A DNA stretch of 43,398 bases from Pelodictyon luteolum (GTDB lineage: Bacteria > Bacteroidota > Chlorobiia > Chlorobiales > Chlorobiaceae), in the NCBI GenBank assembly GCA_020721225.1, contig DYNE01000002.1, forward strand, positions 71,728 through 115,125, in the 5' to 3' direction. Shown here one piece after another: positions 2,696-10,303 of this stretch (positions are counted from its first letter, which is position 1; each line of letters opens with the position of its first letter). Both the position numbers and the translations under genes were made by a program. The notes beneath the pieces were generated by a model. It did not search any database, was not told where the DNA came from, and worked only from the letters and a program-made list of their open reading frames with translations.

Positions 2696-2923
2696 ATGTC
2701 AAACGGATCCAACATCGATGTACAGGGCGCAGTCAACAATCTTGTTGAAACTGCCGGCAAGCTGTTCCAGCTTCAGCTTGATCTTATGAACAACAGCCTC
2801 AAGGCTCTTGCCAACGTTGCCGAGCCTCTCGCCAAAACGGCAACCGATCTGATCGGCAACCTTGCAAATACCGCTACCCAGGTTCTGCAGAGCGTTTCTT
2901 CTGCTGTTGCTCCTAAAAAGTAA
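2696..2923 (+). CDS. csmB: Chlorosome envelope protein, CsmB/CsmF type
   Basis: The 75-residue product begins MSNGSNIDVQGAVNNLVETA and ends VLQSVSSAVAPKK. This matches my memory of CsmB, one of the small proteins in the lipid monolayer around the chlorosome, the light-harvesting organelle of green sulfur bacteria. CsmF is a close paralogue, so the B versus F choice is less certain. Two amphipathic helices (about residues 10-40 and 42-70) without a true membrane span fit a monolayer protein. The ATG at 2696 has no Shine-Dalgarno. A strong terminator follows 17 bases after the stop, so the gene is probably transcribed alone and at a high level. A second chlorosome gene lies 5 kb downstream. Confidence 0.85.
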   Translation: MSNGSNIDVQGAVNNLVETAGKLFQLQLDLMNNSLKALANVAEPLAKTATDLIGNLANTATQVLQSVSSAVAPKK

Positions 2924-2940: not shown

Positions 2941-2978
2941 AAGCACCTTATGCCCCAGGGATAAGGTGCTTTTTTTTT
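2941..2978 (+). terminator. Rho-independent terminator after csmB
   Basis: A perfect 11-base-pair stem pairs AAGCACCTTAT (2941-2951) with ATAAGGTGCTT (2961-2971). The 9-base loop is GCCCCAGGG and a run of nine T bases covers 2970-2978. It lies just after the csmB stop and separates csmB from the kinase gene downstream. Confidence 0.93.
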
Positions 2979-3035: not shown

Positions 3036-4043
3036 ATGAACATCGAAGACAACATCCGCCTTTTTTTCGATAATGAAGCGAGAGATCATCTTGCGATAAC
3101 CCCGATACAGGGAGATGCGTCCACGCGCCGTTACTACAGGATTACCGGCACTGAAACCAGTACGATAGCCTGCCACGATCCTCAGCTTTGCGCTTCGAAT
3201 CTCCACAGTTATCCCTTCCTGATACTGCACGCCCTTTTTTCACGACGCAGCCTTCCGGTTCCGGAAGTGCTTGCCGTCAAGGCGGAATATGGCCTGCTGC
3301 TGCTTGAAGACTGCGGAACGGTTATGCTGCAGGATTTTGCCAACGAACCGGACAATGAAAAGAGTGCCGAACTCTACCGGAACAGCATCGATATTCTTGC
3401 CGACATACAATCGATAACGGGAGATTCCAGTCAAATCCCCTTCAGCCTCAGTTTCGATCACGAAAAACTGATGTTTGAATTCGATTTTTTCATCGAACAC
3501 GCCCTGTTCAATTATTTTGCTGCGAACTTTAAATGCAGCGATGCCGGAGCTCTTCGACGGGAGTTCGAAGCCATAACGGAGATTCTGGTACAACCGGAAC
3601 ATTTTGTGCTCAATCACAGGGACTTTCACAGCCGTAACATCATGATACATAACGGCAAGCCGGTTCTTATAGACTTTCAGGATGCCCGTATGGGGCTGCC
3701 CCAGTATGATGCCGTCTCGCTGATCCGTGATTCTTATACCGATCTTGACGATGCGCTTTCCGAAGAACTGAAAACCCGTCATTACCGGCAGCTCAAAAAC
3801 CGGGACGTCATCACGATGAGTGATGATGAGTACCTCTACCTCTTCGATCTGATGGCTTTTCAGCGCAGCATCAAAGCGCTCGGGACCTTCTGCCATCAGA
3901 CGGCTGTTCTTGGAAAACCGCTTTACGAACAATCGATAGCGCCCACCATAGCCTACATCTCCGATTACATTGCTTCAAGAAAAGAGCTGAAAAAAGCCGG
4001 TGCCCTGCTGTTGCCGCTGCTTGAAAACGGAGCGACGCGATGA
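3036..4043 (+). CDS. amgK: Aminoglycoside-phosphotransferase-fold sugar kinase, probably AmgK-type N-acetylmuramate/N-acetylglucosamine kinase
   Basis: This 335-residue protein has the APH kinase fold. The catalytic loop reads LNHRDFHSRNIMI (HxDxxxxN) and is followed by the metal-binding strand VLIDFQDARMG. An N-terminal GDASTRRYYRI segment matches the nucleotide-binding hairpin of AmgK-like kinases. AmgK phosphorylates MurNAc or GlcNAc at the anomeric carbon in a wall-recycling route that bypasses early UDP-MurNAc synthesis. The next gene, a MurU-like nucleotidyltransferase, overlaps it by four bases (ATGA), and NamZ and a symporter follow. This order is what makes the AmgK call likely. The reading frame stays open upstream to 2862, but that part lies within csmB and its terminator, so I use the ATG at 3036 (MNIEDNIRLFF). 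Confidence 0.8.
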   Translation: MNIEDNIRLFFDNEARDHLAITPIQGDASTRRYYRITGTETSTIACHDPQLCASNLHSYPFLILHALFSRRSLPVPEVLAVKAEYGLLLLEDCGTVMLQDFANEPDNEKSAELYRNSIDILADIQSITGDSSQIPFSLSFDHEKLMFEFDFFIEHALFNYFAANFKCSDAGALRREFEAITEILVQPEHFVLNHRDFHSRNIMIHNGKPVLIDFQDARMGLPQYDAVSLIRDSYTDLDDALSEELKTRHYRQLKNRDVITMSDDEYLYLFDLMAFQRSIKALGTFCHQTAVLGKPLYEQSIAPTIAYISDYIASRKELKKAGALLLPLLENGATR

Positions 4044-4972
4044 AGGCCTTTGTACTTGCCGCCGGATTCGGAACCCGACTCAAACCGTTCACCGATATTC
4101 TCCCCAAACCGCTGGTGCCCATCCGTAATGTCCCTGCGCTTTTCTACACCATAGCTCTGCTTAAGGAAGCCGGCATAACCGAGATCATCTGCAACACTCA
4201 CCATCATGCCGCAGAAATCAGGAATACCCTCGAAGCAGCGGATTTCAGGGGAGTGCATATCTCCTTTTCTGAAGAAAAAAAAATTCTCGGCACAGGGGGC
4301 GGCCTGAAAAAATGCGAACCGCTGCTCGATGATGGCGACTTTCTCCTCATCAACAGCGATATCATCACCGACATCGACTTCACGGCATTCATCGAAAGCC
4401 ACCGTTCATCAGGCCTTCCGGGTACGCTTGCCCTTTATGAAACTCCCGATGCCGGGGCTATCGGAGCCGTCGGCATTGCCAACAACCTGATCAGGGATTT
4501 CCGCAACATGCGCAATACCGGCCTGGAATCATCCCTTATCTACACCGGAACGGCTCTGCTCAGCCCGGCGATTTTCGATTTTCTGAGAGAAGACTTTTCA
4601 GGTATTGTTGATACTGGCTTCACAGGCCTTATTGATAATGGCGGCCTTGGATTATACCGGCATAACGGATCGTGGATGGATATCGGCACTCTGGAAAACT
4701 ACAGACAAGCCAACACAGGAATTGCCATGCTTCCCGAAAAACTTGCAGGAAGAATCGAGGCCTCCATTGGCATCGCTCCTGGATGCATTGCGCCGGAATC
4801 GGACATCGGAAAAGGAACCTCGATCATACGCTCGGTTATCGGCAAGGGGTGCGCTGTCGGGGAAAACGCACGGGTAGAAGAGTCGGTTCTGCTTCCGGGA
4901 GCGGTTGTCTCCCCGGGCGAAACGCTGCGGAAAGCCATTCGGGATCGAAACAACACCGTTACGCCTGCATAA
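4040..4972 (+). CDS. murU: NDP-sugar nucleotidyltransferase, MurU-like, with C-terminal hexapeptide-repeat tail
   Basis: The 310-residue product starts with the nucleotidyltransferase signature LAAGFGTRLKPFTDILPKPL, and the metal-binding DFLLINSDIITDID lies near residue 105. MurU converts MurNAc-1-phosphate plus UTP to UDP-MurNAc. Mannose-1-phosphate guanylyltransferases share the same signature. Translational coupling with the APH-fold kinase (overlap ATGA at 4040-4043) favours MurU. Residues about 235-305 look like a left-handed beta-helix: repeated I/V-G-x-G units such as SDIGKGTSIIRSVIGKG. To my memory Pseudomonas MurU is shorter and lacks this tail, so substrate specificity should be treated as inferred. 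Confidence 0.75.
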   Translation: MKAFVLAAGFGTRLKPFTDILPKPLVPIRNVPALFYTIALLKEAGITEIICNTHHHAAEIRNTLEAADFRGVHISFSEEKKILGTGGGLKKCEPLLDDGDFLLINSDIITDIDFTAFIESHRSSGLPGTLALYETPDAGAIGAVGIANNLIRDFRNMRNTGLESSLIYTGTALLSPAIFDFLREDFSGIVDTGFTGLIDNGGLGLYRHNGSWMDIGTLENYRQANTGIAMLPEKLAGRIEASIGIAPGCIAPESDIGKGTSIIRSVIGKGCAVGENARVEESVLLPGAVVSPGETLRKAIRDRNNTVTPA

Positions 4973-4998
4973 TCAACTAAACCCGCAATCCCGTGACT

Positions 4999-6162
4999 AT
5001 GGTAAGAACAGGACTGGATATGCTGCTGCAAAACATCGAGAGGTACAGCCGAAGACGCATCGGTTTGATTGTCAATCAGACATCGGTTACCTCTGATCTG
5101 CGCTATTCATGGGATGTGCTCAGAAAAAAAGGGTTGAACATCAAGCGGATTTTCTCGCCTGAACACGGACTTTTCGCTACCGAGCAGGATCAGATTGCCG
5201 TCGGCTGCCAGCCGGAATCTGCATACGAGCTGGTAAGCCTCTACGGCTGTTCCGCGGAAACCCTCATTCCTGACAGGAGCCTGCTTGACGACCTCGACCT
5301 CATTCTTTTTGACATTCAGGATGTCGGTTCCCGCTACTACACCTATGTCAACACTCTGGCGCTTTTCATGGAAGCCGCATCCGGCAGGGATATGGAAATC
5401 ATGGTGCTTGACCGTCCGAATCCGCTCGGTGGGACAATGGTCGAAGGGCCTTTGCTCGACCAGACATTACGCTCCTTTGTCGGAATCTTCCCTATCCCGG
5501 TACGTCACGGCATGACGGCAGGAGAACTCGCCCTTCTCTACCGTGACTGGAAAAAAATCGACATCAAGCTCACGGTCATGACCATGAAGTATTGGAGCCG
5601 CAGCATGCTTTTCCCCGAAACCGGCCTGCCCTGGATCCCCCCTTCACCAAACATGCCGACATTTGCCACAGCCGAAGTTTACCCTGGCATGTGCCTTTTT
5701 GAAGGACTCAATGTTTCGGAAGGCCGAGGCTCGACAACCCCCTTTCAGCTTTTCGGCGCGCCATTCATCAACCCGTACGATCTTGCGGAAGCCTGCAAAG
5801 GCGCCGGATTCGAAGGCGCACTGCTCCGTCCGACCTGGTTCAGACCGACCTTTCATAAGTTCAGCGGAACTGTTATCGGCGGCGTCTGGCTTCATGTCGC
5901 CGATAACAGCCGGTTCCGTCCATTCGCCGCTGGCGTAGCCCTTACTGCCGCTCTGCATGAGATCTATCCATCCAGTCTGGAGTTCCTCAGCGGAGTATAT
6001 GAATTCAACGACACCATTCCGGCGTTCGACCTGCTTGCCGGAAACAGTGCCCTCCGCAGTTCGATACTCGACGGCTGCGATGCAGCGACCCTTATCGACT
6101 CCTGGCAGCATGACGAAGCCGAATTCGCCCGGACAAAAGAGCGCTACCACCTTTACAAATGA
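4999..6162 (+). CDS. namZ: NamZ-type exo-beta-N-acetylmuramidase (DUF1343)
   Basis: This 387-residue protein is a full-length DUF1343 protein. Diagnostic parts are the N-terminal RIGLIVNQTSVT, then FSPEHGLFA, ILFDIQDVGSRYYTYVNTL, LDRPNPLGG and later FEGLNVSEGRGSTTPFQLFG. Characterised DUF1343 members (NamZ of Bacillus and Tannerella) cleave MurNAc from the non-reducing end of wall fragments. No signal peptide is visible, so this copy may be cytoplasmic or exported by an unrecognised route. It lies between the MurU-like gene and a symporter gene on the same strand. A GTG start at 4993 would add two residues; there is no Shine-Dalgarno for either. The family is firm and the reaction follows from it. 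Confidence 0.88.
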   Translation: MVRTGLDMLLQNIERYSRRRIGLIVNQTSVTSDLRYSWDVLRKKGLNIKRIFSPEHGLFATEQDQIAVGCQPESAYELVSLYGCSAETLIPDRSLLDDLDLILFDIQDVGSRYYTYVNTLALFMEAASGRDMEIMVLDRPNPLGGTMVEGPLLDQTLRSFVGIFPIPVRHGMTAGELALLYRDWKKIDIKLTVMTMKYWSRSMLFPETGLPWIPPSPNMPTFATAEVYPGMCLFEGLNVSEGRGSTTPFQLFGAPFINPYDLAEACKGAGFEGALLRPTWFRPTFHKFSGTVIGGVWLHVADNSRFRPFAAGVALTAALHEIYPSSLEFLSGVYEFNDTIPAFDLLAGNSALRSSILDGCDAATLIDSWQHDEAEFARTKERYHLYK

Positions 6163-6183
6163 CGGAACAAACAACATAAATCC

Positions 6184-7602
6184 ATGCAGGCTGCCGATAT
6201 AGCAATCATCGTCTTTTTCCTTGCAGGGAGCATCCTGCTCGGCCTCTGGCAGGGTAAAAGCAATAAAAATACCGGAGACTACTTTCTCGGAGGCCATAAG
6301 CTCCCCTGGATTGTCGCCATGCTCTCTATCGTTGCAACAGAGACCTCGGTACTTACCTTCGTCAGCGTACCGGGACTTGCCTATCGGGGGGACTGGACCT
6401 TTCTGCAGCTGCCTCTCGGCTATATATTCGGAAGAGTGCTGGTGAGCGTATTTCTTCTGCCGGTTTACTTCAAAAATGGCGTCAGCTCCATCTATGAAAT
6501 CATCGGTTCGAGATTCGGCACCGGCATGCAGAAGCTCGCGTCGGTGGTCTTTCTTGTAACCCGCATTCTCGGCGACGGAGTACGGTTTCTCGCGACAGGC
6601 GTGGTCGTTCAGGTGGTAACCGGCTGGTCACTTCCCCTGTCGGTGCTCATCATAGGCATCGTCACTCTGGTTTACACCATTTCAGGAGGTCTGAAAACCG
6701 TGGTCTGGCTTGACAGCATCCAGTTCGGCCTTTACCTTCTGGGCGGCATCATCACCATCGTCTTTATTGTTCTAAACCTTGATGCAAGCCCTCAGGAGAT
6801 ATACGCAACACTTGCCGCATCAGGAAAGCTCACGGTTCTGAACACTAAAGGCAGCCTCCTGTTCGATCCCATGACGTTCGGAAGCGCCTTTATTGGCGGC
6901 ATCTTTCTGTCGTTTGCATCGCACGGCATCGACTATATGATGGTTCAGAGGGTCCTCGGTTGCAGCGACCTTGGTTCGGCACGAAAAGCCCTGATCGGCA
7001 GCGGACTTTTCGTCTTTCTGCAATTCATGATTTTCCTGCTTGCAGGATCGCTCATCTATCTGTTTATGCAGGGCGCGGCAACGGTAAAGGACAGGGAATT
7101 CGCCACGTTTATCGTCGATTATCTCCCTTCCGGGCTCAAAGGCCTGCTGCTTGCCGGCATCCTTTCGGCAGCAATGTCGACCATCGCCTCCTCGATCAAC
7201 TCGCTTGCAGCATCAACCGTTACCGATCTCATGGGCGGCCGGGCATCGCTGAATCTCTCCAGAATCATCAGCGCTGCCTGGGCGGCCGTGCTTATCGGCA
7301 TCGCCCTTGTATTTGACGAAAACGACAAAGCCATCATTATGGTCGGACTTGAAATTGCGTCCTTTACCTATGGCGGACTACTCGGGCTCTTTCTGCTATC
7401 AAAAACAAAAAAACAATTCCACACGGCAAGCCTGGCCGTCGGTCTGCTTGCAAGCATGGGCATAGTATTCGTACTGAAGCATTACGGAATAGCCTGGACA
7501 TGGTATATACTGCTCTCCGTCATATTCAACCTGCTTATCGTGTCTTCTCTCGATCTCCTTATTGGCAGGCTCCGGAAGCAGACAAAAGAGACATCGGACT
7601 GA
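6184..7602 (+). CDS. Sodium:solute symporter (SSS family), candidate MurNAc or wall-sugar importer
   Basis: The 472-residue integral membrane protein has about 13 hydrophobic helices. Its N-terminal segment reads GLWQGKSNKNTGDYFLGGH, followed by SIVATETSVLTFVSVPG, the usual SSS start. Later SSS hallmarks include GGLKTVVWLDSIQ and the GLLLAGILSAAMSTIASSIN segment, where the sodium-site Ser/Thr residues are expected. These transporters couple sodium entry to sugar, amino acid or vitamin uptake. It starts 21 bases after NamZ, so they are probably one transcript. In Tannerella a MurNAc importer (MurT) of SSS type sits next to MurNAc kinase, which supports the same role here. The substrate is inferred from context only. 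Confidence 0.85.
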   Translation: MQAADIAIIVFFLAGSILLGLWQGKSNKNTGDYFLGGHKLPWIVAMLSIVATETSVLTFVSVPGLAYRGDWTFLQLPLGYIFGRVLVSVFLLPVYFKNGVSSIYEIIGSRFGTGMQKLASVVFLVTRILGDGVRFLATGVVVQVVTGWSLPLSVLIIGIVTLVYTISGGLKTVVWLDSIQFGLYLLGGIITIVFIVLNLDASPQEIYATLAASGKLTVLNTKGSLLFDPMTFGSAFIGGIFLSFASHGIDYMMVQRVLGCSDLGSARKALIGSGLFVFLQFMIFLLAGSLIYLFMQGAATVKDREFATFIVDYLPSGLKGLLLAGILSAAMSTIASSINSLAASTVTDLMGGRASLNLSRIISAAWAAVLIGIALVFDENDKAIIMVGLEIASFTYGGLLGLFLLSKTKKQFHTASLAVGLLASMGIVFVLKHYGIAWTWYILLSVIFNLLIVSSLDLLIGRLRKQTKETSD

Positions 7603-7703: not shown

Positions 7704-7961
7704 ATGGCCAATAACTCAGGAGCTTTTGTTCAGGGCGCTGAAGCATATGGAAGATTTCTTGAAGTGTTCATTGATGGGCACTGGTGGGTTGTTGGCGATG
7801 CTCTTGAGAACATCGGAAAAACCACGAAACGGCTTGGCGCAAATGCATATCCCCATCTTTACGGTGGAGGCGGAACATCTGCGGGACTGAGAGGTTCATC
7901 TCCCGAAAAATCGGGTTTTGCGGTACCCAACAAAGACATCGAGCGCCGCTTCAAGGATTGA
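7704..7961 (+). CDS. csmE: Chlorosome envelope protein, CsmA/CsmE type
   Basis: The 85-residue product has the CsmA-like core EVFIDGHWWVVGDALENIGK, and His26 aligns with the histidine of CsmA thought to bind baseplate bacteriochlorophyll a. The C-terminal part GLRGSSPEKSGFAVPNKDIE matches the CsmA propeptide region, which is removed on maturation. CsmE is the known CsmA paralogue with this longer Gly-rich linker (YGGGGTSAG), and I choose it because CsmA itself reads slightly differently and is shorter. It would act in the chlorosome envelope or baseplate. A strong terminator follows 20 bases after the stop, and it lies 101 bases from the symporter gene. The family is certain; E rather than A is likely. 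Confidence 0.86.
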   Translation: MANNSGAFVQGAEAYGRFLEVFIDGHWWVVGDALENIGKTTKRLGANAYPHLYGGGGTSAGLRGSSPEKSGFAVPNKDIERRFKD

Positions 7962-8950: not shown

Positions 8951-10303
8951 ATGAACCACAAACAATCACTGTTTTGGGCGATCGTTCTTACAGCTTTTTT
9001 TATATCCCCACCTCTCGCTTTCGGTTTTGATCCCGAAGCCGTTACAATTCTGAAAAACAGCCGTGAGGAGTGGCAGTCCTTGCGACTCTCCAATCCCGAA
9101 AAAACCGTAGATCTGAACAAGGCAAAGCTCGAAGACGCAGATCTCGAAGGAGCGAACCTCAGCAATGTCTCTCTTGTGAGAGCCGAACTGAGTGGCGCAA
9201 ATCTCAACAGGGCAAATCTGCAGAAAACAAATCTTGCCATGGCATTCATCAAAAAAGCAGATCTGAAGGAAGCCGACTTCAGTGGCGCATCATTGACGAA
9301 AGCCAACCTCAAGGAGTCCTTCATGAAAGGAGCATCGTTTTCCAGGGCAAATCTGCAGGGAGCAAACCTGAGATGGGCGATGCTTGAAGCTGCCGATTTA
9401 TCACAGGCAAATCTTGCCGGAACCGTACTTTTTGAAACCAATCTCGAAAATGCCAATCTGAAAGGGACAAACTTCAAAGGCTCGATTTTCATCGATCAGG
9501 CAAATCTCAGCGGCGCTCTGGTATCGAACAACACAATTATTCCATCCGGTGAAAAAGCGACCCCGTCCTGGGCATCAATTCGCAAAGCGCGTTTTTTCAG
9601 AGAACCCGATACCGAACCACCAACCTATCTGACACCGCCAGCTCCCTCCATGCTGAAAGTGCAGGCTTCCGAACCAGATATCCGCCTGAAACCCAACGAA
9701 CTCAAGGCGAAAAACGATCCGGGCGACAGCAGAAACCGACAGGAACTGCTCACTGAAGATGTAGAAACATGGAACAGCATGAGGGAGAAAAATCCTGAAC
9801 TGCCAATAACCATGAAACAGGAAAAACTTGAGAATGCCGATCTCAAGGGAGTGAACCTTCAGCAGGCCTCAATGGCTGGATCGGATTTTGAAGATGCCAA
9901 TCTTGACGATGCACTTATGAACGGTGCTGATCTGTCCGGCTCGAATTTCCAGAAAGCCGATATGAAAGCAGCTCAACTTCACGGAGCAAAACTCCACAAA
10001 GCAAATTTCGACCGAGCTTTTCTGAAAGGATCTGATCTCAGCAATGCCGATCTGACAGAGGCTAACCTCTACGGAGCAATCATGACCGGAACGAATCTGA
10101 GCGGTGCCGATCTGACCGGGGCATCACTTTTTGATACTGATCTTGAGGAAGCAGACCTGTCGGGAGCTATTCTGAAAGATGTCACCATGATGGATACCAA
10201 TATGAACAATGCCATCATCTCCGCAGAAACCGTTCTTCCTTCCGGGAAAAAAGCCACTGCAGGCTGGGCGGTGCAGAGAGGCGCTATTTTCAGGAACCCT
10301 TAA
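8951..10303 (+). CDS. Exported pentapeptide-repeat protein with a tandem internal duplication
   Basis: The 450-residue product starts with a signal peptide (MNHKQSLFWAIVLTAFFISP, mature after about residue 25). It then has two copies of the same module. Each opens with an E-x-W-N/Q-S-x-R-x-x-NPE element (residues about 38 and 273), continues with A(D/N)LxG-type pentapeptides forming a right-handed beta-helix, and closes with PSGEKATPSW...FFREP or PSGKKATAGW...IFRNP. A linker rich in Pro and Lys lies between them (about 215-265). Pentapeptide helices act as scaffolds or DNA mimics in cytoplasmic proteins, but this one appears to be secreted to the periplasm. It stands alone between divergent and unrelated genes. 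Confidence 0.88.
   Translation: MNHKQSLFWAIVLTAFFISPPLAFGFDPEAVTILKNSREEWQSLRLSNPEKTVDLNKAKLEDADLEGANLSNVSLVRAELSGANLNRANLQKTNLAMAFIKKADLKEADFSGASLTKANLKESFMKGASFSRANLQGANLRWAMLEAADLSQANLAGTVLFETNLENANLKGTNFKGSIFIDQANLSGALVSNNTIIPSGEKATPSWASIRKARFFREPDTEPPTYLTPPAPSMLKVQASEPDIRLKPNELKAKNDPGDSRNRQELLTEDVETWNSMREKNPELPITMKQEKLENADLKGVNLQQASMAGSDFEDANLDDALMNGADLSGSNFQKADMKAAQLHGAKLHKANFDRAFLKGSDLSNADLTEANLYGAIMTGTNLSGADLTGASLFDTDLEEADLSGAILKDVTMMDTNMNNAIISAETVLPSGKKATAGWAVQRGAIFRNP

Follow-up and report, generated by a model that had tools for sequence, protein, structure and literature searches.

The window analysed here, a 43,398-nucleotide stretch of a Pelodictyon luteolum contig (DYNE01000002.1), carries a cassette of four genes on the forward strand. 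A gene for an AmgK-like anomeric amino-sugar kinase of the APH fold (3036..4043, 335 aa, ATG start) is followed by genes for a MurU-like sugar-1-phosphate nucleotidyltransferase with a beta-helix tail (NTase; 4040..4972, 310 aa), a NamZ/GH171 exo-beta-N-acetylmuramidase (4993..6162, 389 aa, GTG start) and an SSS-family sodium:solute symporter (6184..7602, 472 aa). The kinase and NTase genes overlap by 4 bases (ATGA), while 20 bases separate NTase from NamZ and 21 bases NamZ from the symporter gene. The coordinates, strand, overlap and NamZ-symporter gap given in the preliminary description are exact to the base. Directly upstream of the kinase lies a conserved gene for a 75-aa protein (2696..2923, forward strand), for which a Pfam search returned no convincing match and which may be chlorosome CsmB/F-like. 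It is separated from the cassette by an intrinsic terminator on the same strand (2943..2978), which has a 9-bp stem and the layout GCACCTTAT, 9-nt loop, ATAAGGTGC, T9; this terminator was read straight from the sequence, its loop exceeding the scanner's loop limit of 8. A scan for sigma-70 promoters found 5 against 3.8 expected. Downstream, a gene on the forward strand (7704..7961) encodes a CsmA/CsmE-type bacteriochlorophyll c-binding protein (PF02043, 2e-38). In several Chlorobiaceae the cassette likewise sits between two small chlorosome-type genes, which correspond here to 2696-2923 and 7704-7961.

We searched 98 genomes of the class, comprising 86 Chlorobiaceae (f1), two Chloroherpeton-like genomes (f2) and ten genomes of families f3 and f4. 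The kinase is found in 84/86 Chlorobiaceae, with the other three genes tracking it. The preliminary description had proposed looking for the same gene order in other Chlorobi, and the order kinase-NTase-NamZ-symporter is indeed present in 60/60 named Chlorobiaceae loci (Chlorobium, Chlorobaculum, Pelodictyon, Chlorobiaceae) with at least 4.6 kb of downstream sequence, so the arrangement is not due to chance. Over all loci, the kinase-NTase gap has a median of -4, and gaps of at most 100 bases are seen in 68 of 69 cases between NTase and NamZ and in 60 of 61 between NamZ and the symporter. The four-gene unit is thus near-universal in Chlorobiaceae, with relatives in Spirochaetota, and is not the oddity of a single genome. 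True loss of the cassette was considered for genomes G049 and G015; an assembly gap is likelier in both, the flanking gene lying 716 bases from a contig end in G049 and the flank orthologue not being found in G015. In a Pelodictyon luteolum MAG (L043:7001-11544), the kinase is nearly identical to that of locus L042 and the NTase, NamZ and symporter are much more distant, a mismatch that would stem either from recombination within the cassette or from chimeric assembly.

The kinase matches PF01636 (APH) with 92.5 bits, above the gathering score. Among NCBIfam models, AmgK (NF045759, E 6.5e-35) ranks first, about 29 orders of magnitude stronger than any non-AmgK model, the best of which reaches 7e-6. 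The Brenner-type catalytic motif HRD[FYL]HSRN and the DFQDA motif are kept across Chlorobiaceae and read HRDFHSRN and IDFQDA in the window. The scores, 120.8 and 69.1 bits, lie under the AmgK equivalog cut-offs of 550 or 500, as the NTase scores do under that of MurU, and we therefore name the two proteins AmgK-like and MurU-like. On this likeness, the kinase would be expected to phosphorylate MurNAc or GlcNAc at C1.

In the NTase, both the NTP_transferase domain (PF00483) and a hexapeptide tail (PF24894, 32.6 bits) score above their gathering thresholds. With the full-length protein, the best NCBIfam model is MurU (8.9e-41), followed by the mannose-1-P guanylyltransferase model NF052502, which outscores MurU for the full-length NTase of a relative (L012). 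With the catalytic domain alone, MurU (NF045761) leads at 3.4e-41 with the next model at 1.1e-26; the bit scores of 140.2 for the full length and 141.6 for the catalytic domain compare with a MurU equivalog cut-off of 250. Once the tail is removed, MurU ranks first in each of the four genomes tested (this one, another of the Chlorobiaceae and two from spirochaetes), with a lead of 6 to 14 orders of magnitude. Since the guanylyltransferase model leads in that one relative with the tail on, and MurU in these four once it is off, it is the tail and not the active site that draws the protein toward that family. The AlphaFold model (mean pLDDT 94) shows residues ~249-308 as a left-handed beta-helix, and its structural neighbours agree, bearing out the extra tail that the preliminary description had read from the sequence. 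MurU of P. putida (4y7v) superposes on the entire catalytic domain (Z 27.4, 216 residues, 2.0 Å, 32% identity). The full-length structural neighbours are GDP-mannose pyrophosphorylases and ADP-glucose enzymes, all of which share the beta-helix; because this ranking follows the tail, the modelled fold is not decisive for the substrate. In sequence, the motifs LAAGxGxR and LGTGGG are like LAAG and LETGGG of P. putida MurU rather than LVGG and LGTAGP of the GDP-mannose enzymes, and LGTGGGL is present in 66/66 Chlorobiaceae rows.

The third protein matches NamZ_N (PF07075, 247.3 bits) and NamZ_C (PF20732, 162.5 bits) far above the cut-offs, as well as PDB entry 4k05 (5.7e-58), and it is predicted to cleave MurNAc off the non-reducing end. 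Its GTG start and the upstream in-frame stop are only 4 codons apart, leaving no room for a signal peptide, and no signal-like segment is found, in agreement with the absence remarked on in the preliminary description. By comparison, seven other NamZ proteins of the class (two paralogs and five from f2-f4) all open with a signal-like stretch, which stops immediately ahead of the residues at which the cassette protein begins. The maximal N-terminal hydropathy is 1.05 for the NamZ of the window and at most 2.15 among 63 cassette copies; as the ranges overlap for two f3/f4 copies, the location call rests on reading the N-termini together with these numbers. The cassette NamZ therefore probably works in the cytoplasm, on an imported MurNAc-containing sugar. 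The NamZ tree unites the cassette copies of Chlorobiaceae in a single clade (100/99), apart from the exported Chlorobiaceae paralog and the f2-f4 copies, and groups this clade with the spirochaete copies (98/98), a grouping at which long branches meet according to the tool's warning.

The symporter matches SSF (PF00474) with 99.6 bits against a cut-off of 22.8, and its nearest solved structure is 5nv9 (1.5e-35). Its gene adjoins a NamZ gene in several f2-f4 genomes as well. We propose, from its family and neighbourhood, that it may import MurNAc or a MurNAc disaccharide, the import substrate being the least certain step of the mechanism outlined below.

The distribution of other recycling genes across the 98 genomes is consistent with a role of the cassette in salvage. 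Kinase genes were found in f1 and f2 but not in f3/f4, while MurQ shows the complementary pattern, being found in 0/86 f1 and 0/2 f2 genomes and in 10/10 f3/f4 genomes. An alternation between MurQ and AmgK/MurU has been reported in proteobacteria (PMC5371407). This complementarity runs along lineages and so represents one or two evolutionary events; it is supporting rather than conclusive. AnmK was found in 0/86 Chlorobiaceae genomes and in 11/12 genomes of the other families; anhydro-MurNAc thus has no obvious way in, and a hydrolytic entry through NamZ fits this. For AmpG, the 21 genomes tested gave only weak matches, none above the cut-off, a search in which distant homologues could be missed. 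MurA is present in the genome of the window, where its fosfomycin-target cysteine motif reads GGCAFGPRP, and in nearly all relatives tested, so that a salvage route would be a by-pass and not the sole source.

Outside the Chlorobiaceae, the next nearest kinases come from 14 Spirochaetota MAGs (41-49% identity), where the NTase and NamZ are 40-49% and 52-59% identical to those of the cassette. The NTase gene adjoins the kinase gene in most of these loci, NamZ follows in the same order in five, and in L105 a symporter gene takes the place of NamZ. As in Chlorobiaceae, the NamZ that accompanies the kinase in Spirochaetes is signal-less. FtsZ motifs are found directly upstream of kinase-NTase(-NamZ) in 12/14 loci (including L107, L110, L114 and L116), with Pfam confirming FtsZ in two of the ftsZ-linked loci and FtsA in two more. 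These ftsA-ftsZ-kinase-NTase(-NamZ) clusters are like the cassette in gene order and in their signal-less NamZ; unlike it, they lie behind ftsZ and have no adjacent symporter gene save in L105, which is without NamZ. The simplest reading of these sequences is that the unit has passed from one phylum to the other, in either direction. The two Chloroherpeton-like genomes also have an AmgK-like kinase gene beside a MurU-like NTase gene; there, however, the kinase carries a fused RapZ C-terminal domain (PF22740; L020:2306-3778, L021:2628-4088), the NTase is minimal and tail-less, and the NamZ-symporter pair lies elsewhere in the genome. The fusion suggests amino-sugar control of the kinase. In the kinase tree, the Chloroherpeton-type and 3csv rows have branches too long for reliable placement. 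A viral or phage origin was considered and rejected, relatives being absent from viral contigs.

Taken together, these data favor, with a probability of roughly three in four, a compact anabolic operon for the salvage of peptidoglycan sugars, whose four genes would be transcribed together. Wall fragments would be shortened in the periplasm by exported GH3 and NamZ2 enzymes, and from there the symporter would bring in MurNAc and/or a MurNAc-terminated disaccharide (MurNAc-GlcNAc). The cytoplasmic NamZ would then take MurNAc off the non-reducing end, the AmgK-like kinase would phosphorylate its anomeric carbon to give MurNAc-1-P, and perhaps also GlcNAc-1-P, and the MurU-like NTase would make UDP-MurNAc, which enters wall synthesis past MurA/MurB. 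The four family assignments and the MurNAc theme of the preliminary description agree with the HMM, neighbourhood and gene-distribution tests. Of the scheme of release, import and activation proposed there, MurNAc salvage stands and release by NamZ before import does not: a NamZ predicted to be cytoplasmic would release no MurNAc outside for the symporter, which makes import first, followed by cleavage and activation, likelier. A more specific version seems rather doubtful to us as a whole. It is a route free of AnmK and MurQ in which the sodium symporter imports MurNAc-GlcNAc, the cytoplasmic exo-muramidase splits it and one kinase activates both sugars, the unit having been exchanged between Spirochaetota and Chlorobiaceae.

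The closest competitor, which we regard as possible though not the better bet, concerns the imported sugar: the symporter may take up only free MurNAc released by the exported NamZ paralog, while the cytoplasmic NamZ would process a different MurNAc glycoside inside the cell or be a minor accessory. The second NamZ of the genome (L011) and both of its GH3 (NagZ-family) enzymes have signal-like N-termini, so that the periplasm could be a source of free sugars, and SSS proteins, the family of the nearest structure 5nv9, often carry single sugars or sialic acid. Yet a signal-less NamZ stands beside the symporter in 60/60 complete loci, and a signal-less NamZ also goes with the kinase in Spirochaetes; both observations speak against this reading.

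The activating enzymes could instead make another nucleotide sugar, such as GDP-mannose or a heptose derivative, their adjacency to NamZ and the symporter being a matter of history only. The GDP-mannose pyrophosphorylases among the structural neighbours of the full-length NTase, and the rank of NF052502 (second here, first in L012), point that way. We nevertheless consider this improbable, given the lead of MurU on the catalytic domain in 4/4 genomes, the LAAG and LGTGGG motifs at the positions of LVGG and LGTAGP, the complementarity of kinase and MurQ, and the ftsZ neighbourhood in Spirochaetes. Least credible by far is that the kinase phosphorylates aminoglycosides or other antibiotics: it does have the APH fold and weak matches to APH(3')-IIIa, but the match to AmgK is stronger than these by about 29 orders of magnitude, and the gene is single-copy in nearly all genomes of a whole family, in an operon with the NTase.

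The salvage operon that we favor can be compared with two known systems. It shares with AmgK-MurU recycling in Pseudomonas, which also involves AnmK and MupP, an APH-fold kinase and a sugar NTase, the proposed formation of UDP-MurNAc past MurA/MurB, and the absence of MurQ. Unlike in Pseudomonas, AnmK is absent from all 86 Chlorobiaceae genomes and no AmpG exceeds the cut-off in the 21 genomes tested, the two genes stand in one cluster with NamZ and a symporter and score under the equivalog cut-offs, and the NTase has a beta-helix tail, whereas MurU is a minimal single-domain enzyme. With the murTKQ and NamZ1-NamZ2 system of Tannerella forsythia, the cassette shares NamZ enzymes and a transporter: MurT, the MurNAc transporter, is described as a member of the sodium symporter superfamily, and elsewhere in the same paper as a major facilitator (PMC5790795). 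AmgK/MurU have been proposed in Tannerella too; that organism, however, catabolizes MurNAc through MurK and MurQ and is without MurA/MurB, while Chlorobiaceae have MurA and no MurQ. Each part of the cassette thus resembles known enzymes, and the arrangement with a cytoplasmic cutting enzyme appears to be new. The preliminary description knew of no report of this combination in chlorosome-bearing phototrophs, and our search, which covered the open literature and few subscription papers, returned no paper linking green sulfur bacteria to peptidoglycan recycling. A near-universal four-gene unit offers a direct hypothesis for wall-sugar recovery in a whole family of phototrophs. Through it the AmgK-MurU route would reach further than Proteobacteria and Bacteroidia, and its layout suggests that a NamZ that has been relocated stands in for AnmK as the point of entry. 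In spirochaetes, the copies next to ftsZ would connect wall-sugar salvage to division genes. MurNAc probes, which need AmgK/MurU (PMC13041923), would be predicted to label Chlorobiaceae.

Two further features of the window lie outside the cassette. A gene at 8951-10303 encodes a 450-aa pentapeptide-repeat-like protein whose two halves are alike, and which is frequent downstream of the cassette across Chlorobiaceae. The segment 25080-30444 encodes a 1106-aa amylase/maltosyl-type protein (TreS-maltokinase-like) with GlgE adjoining, pointing to the maltose-1-phosphate glucan pathway.
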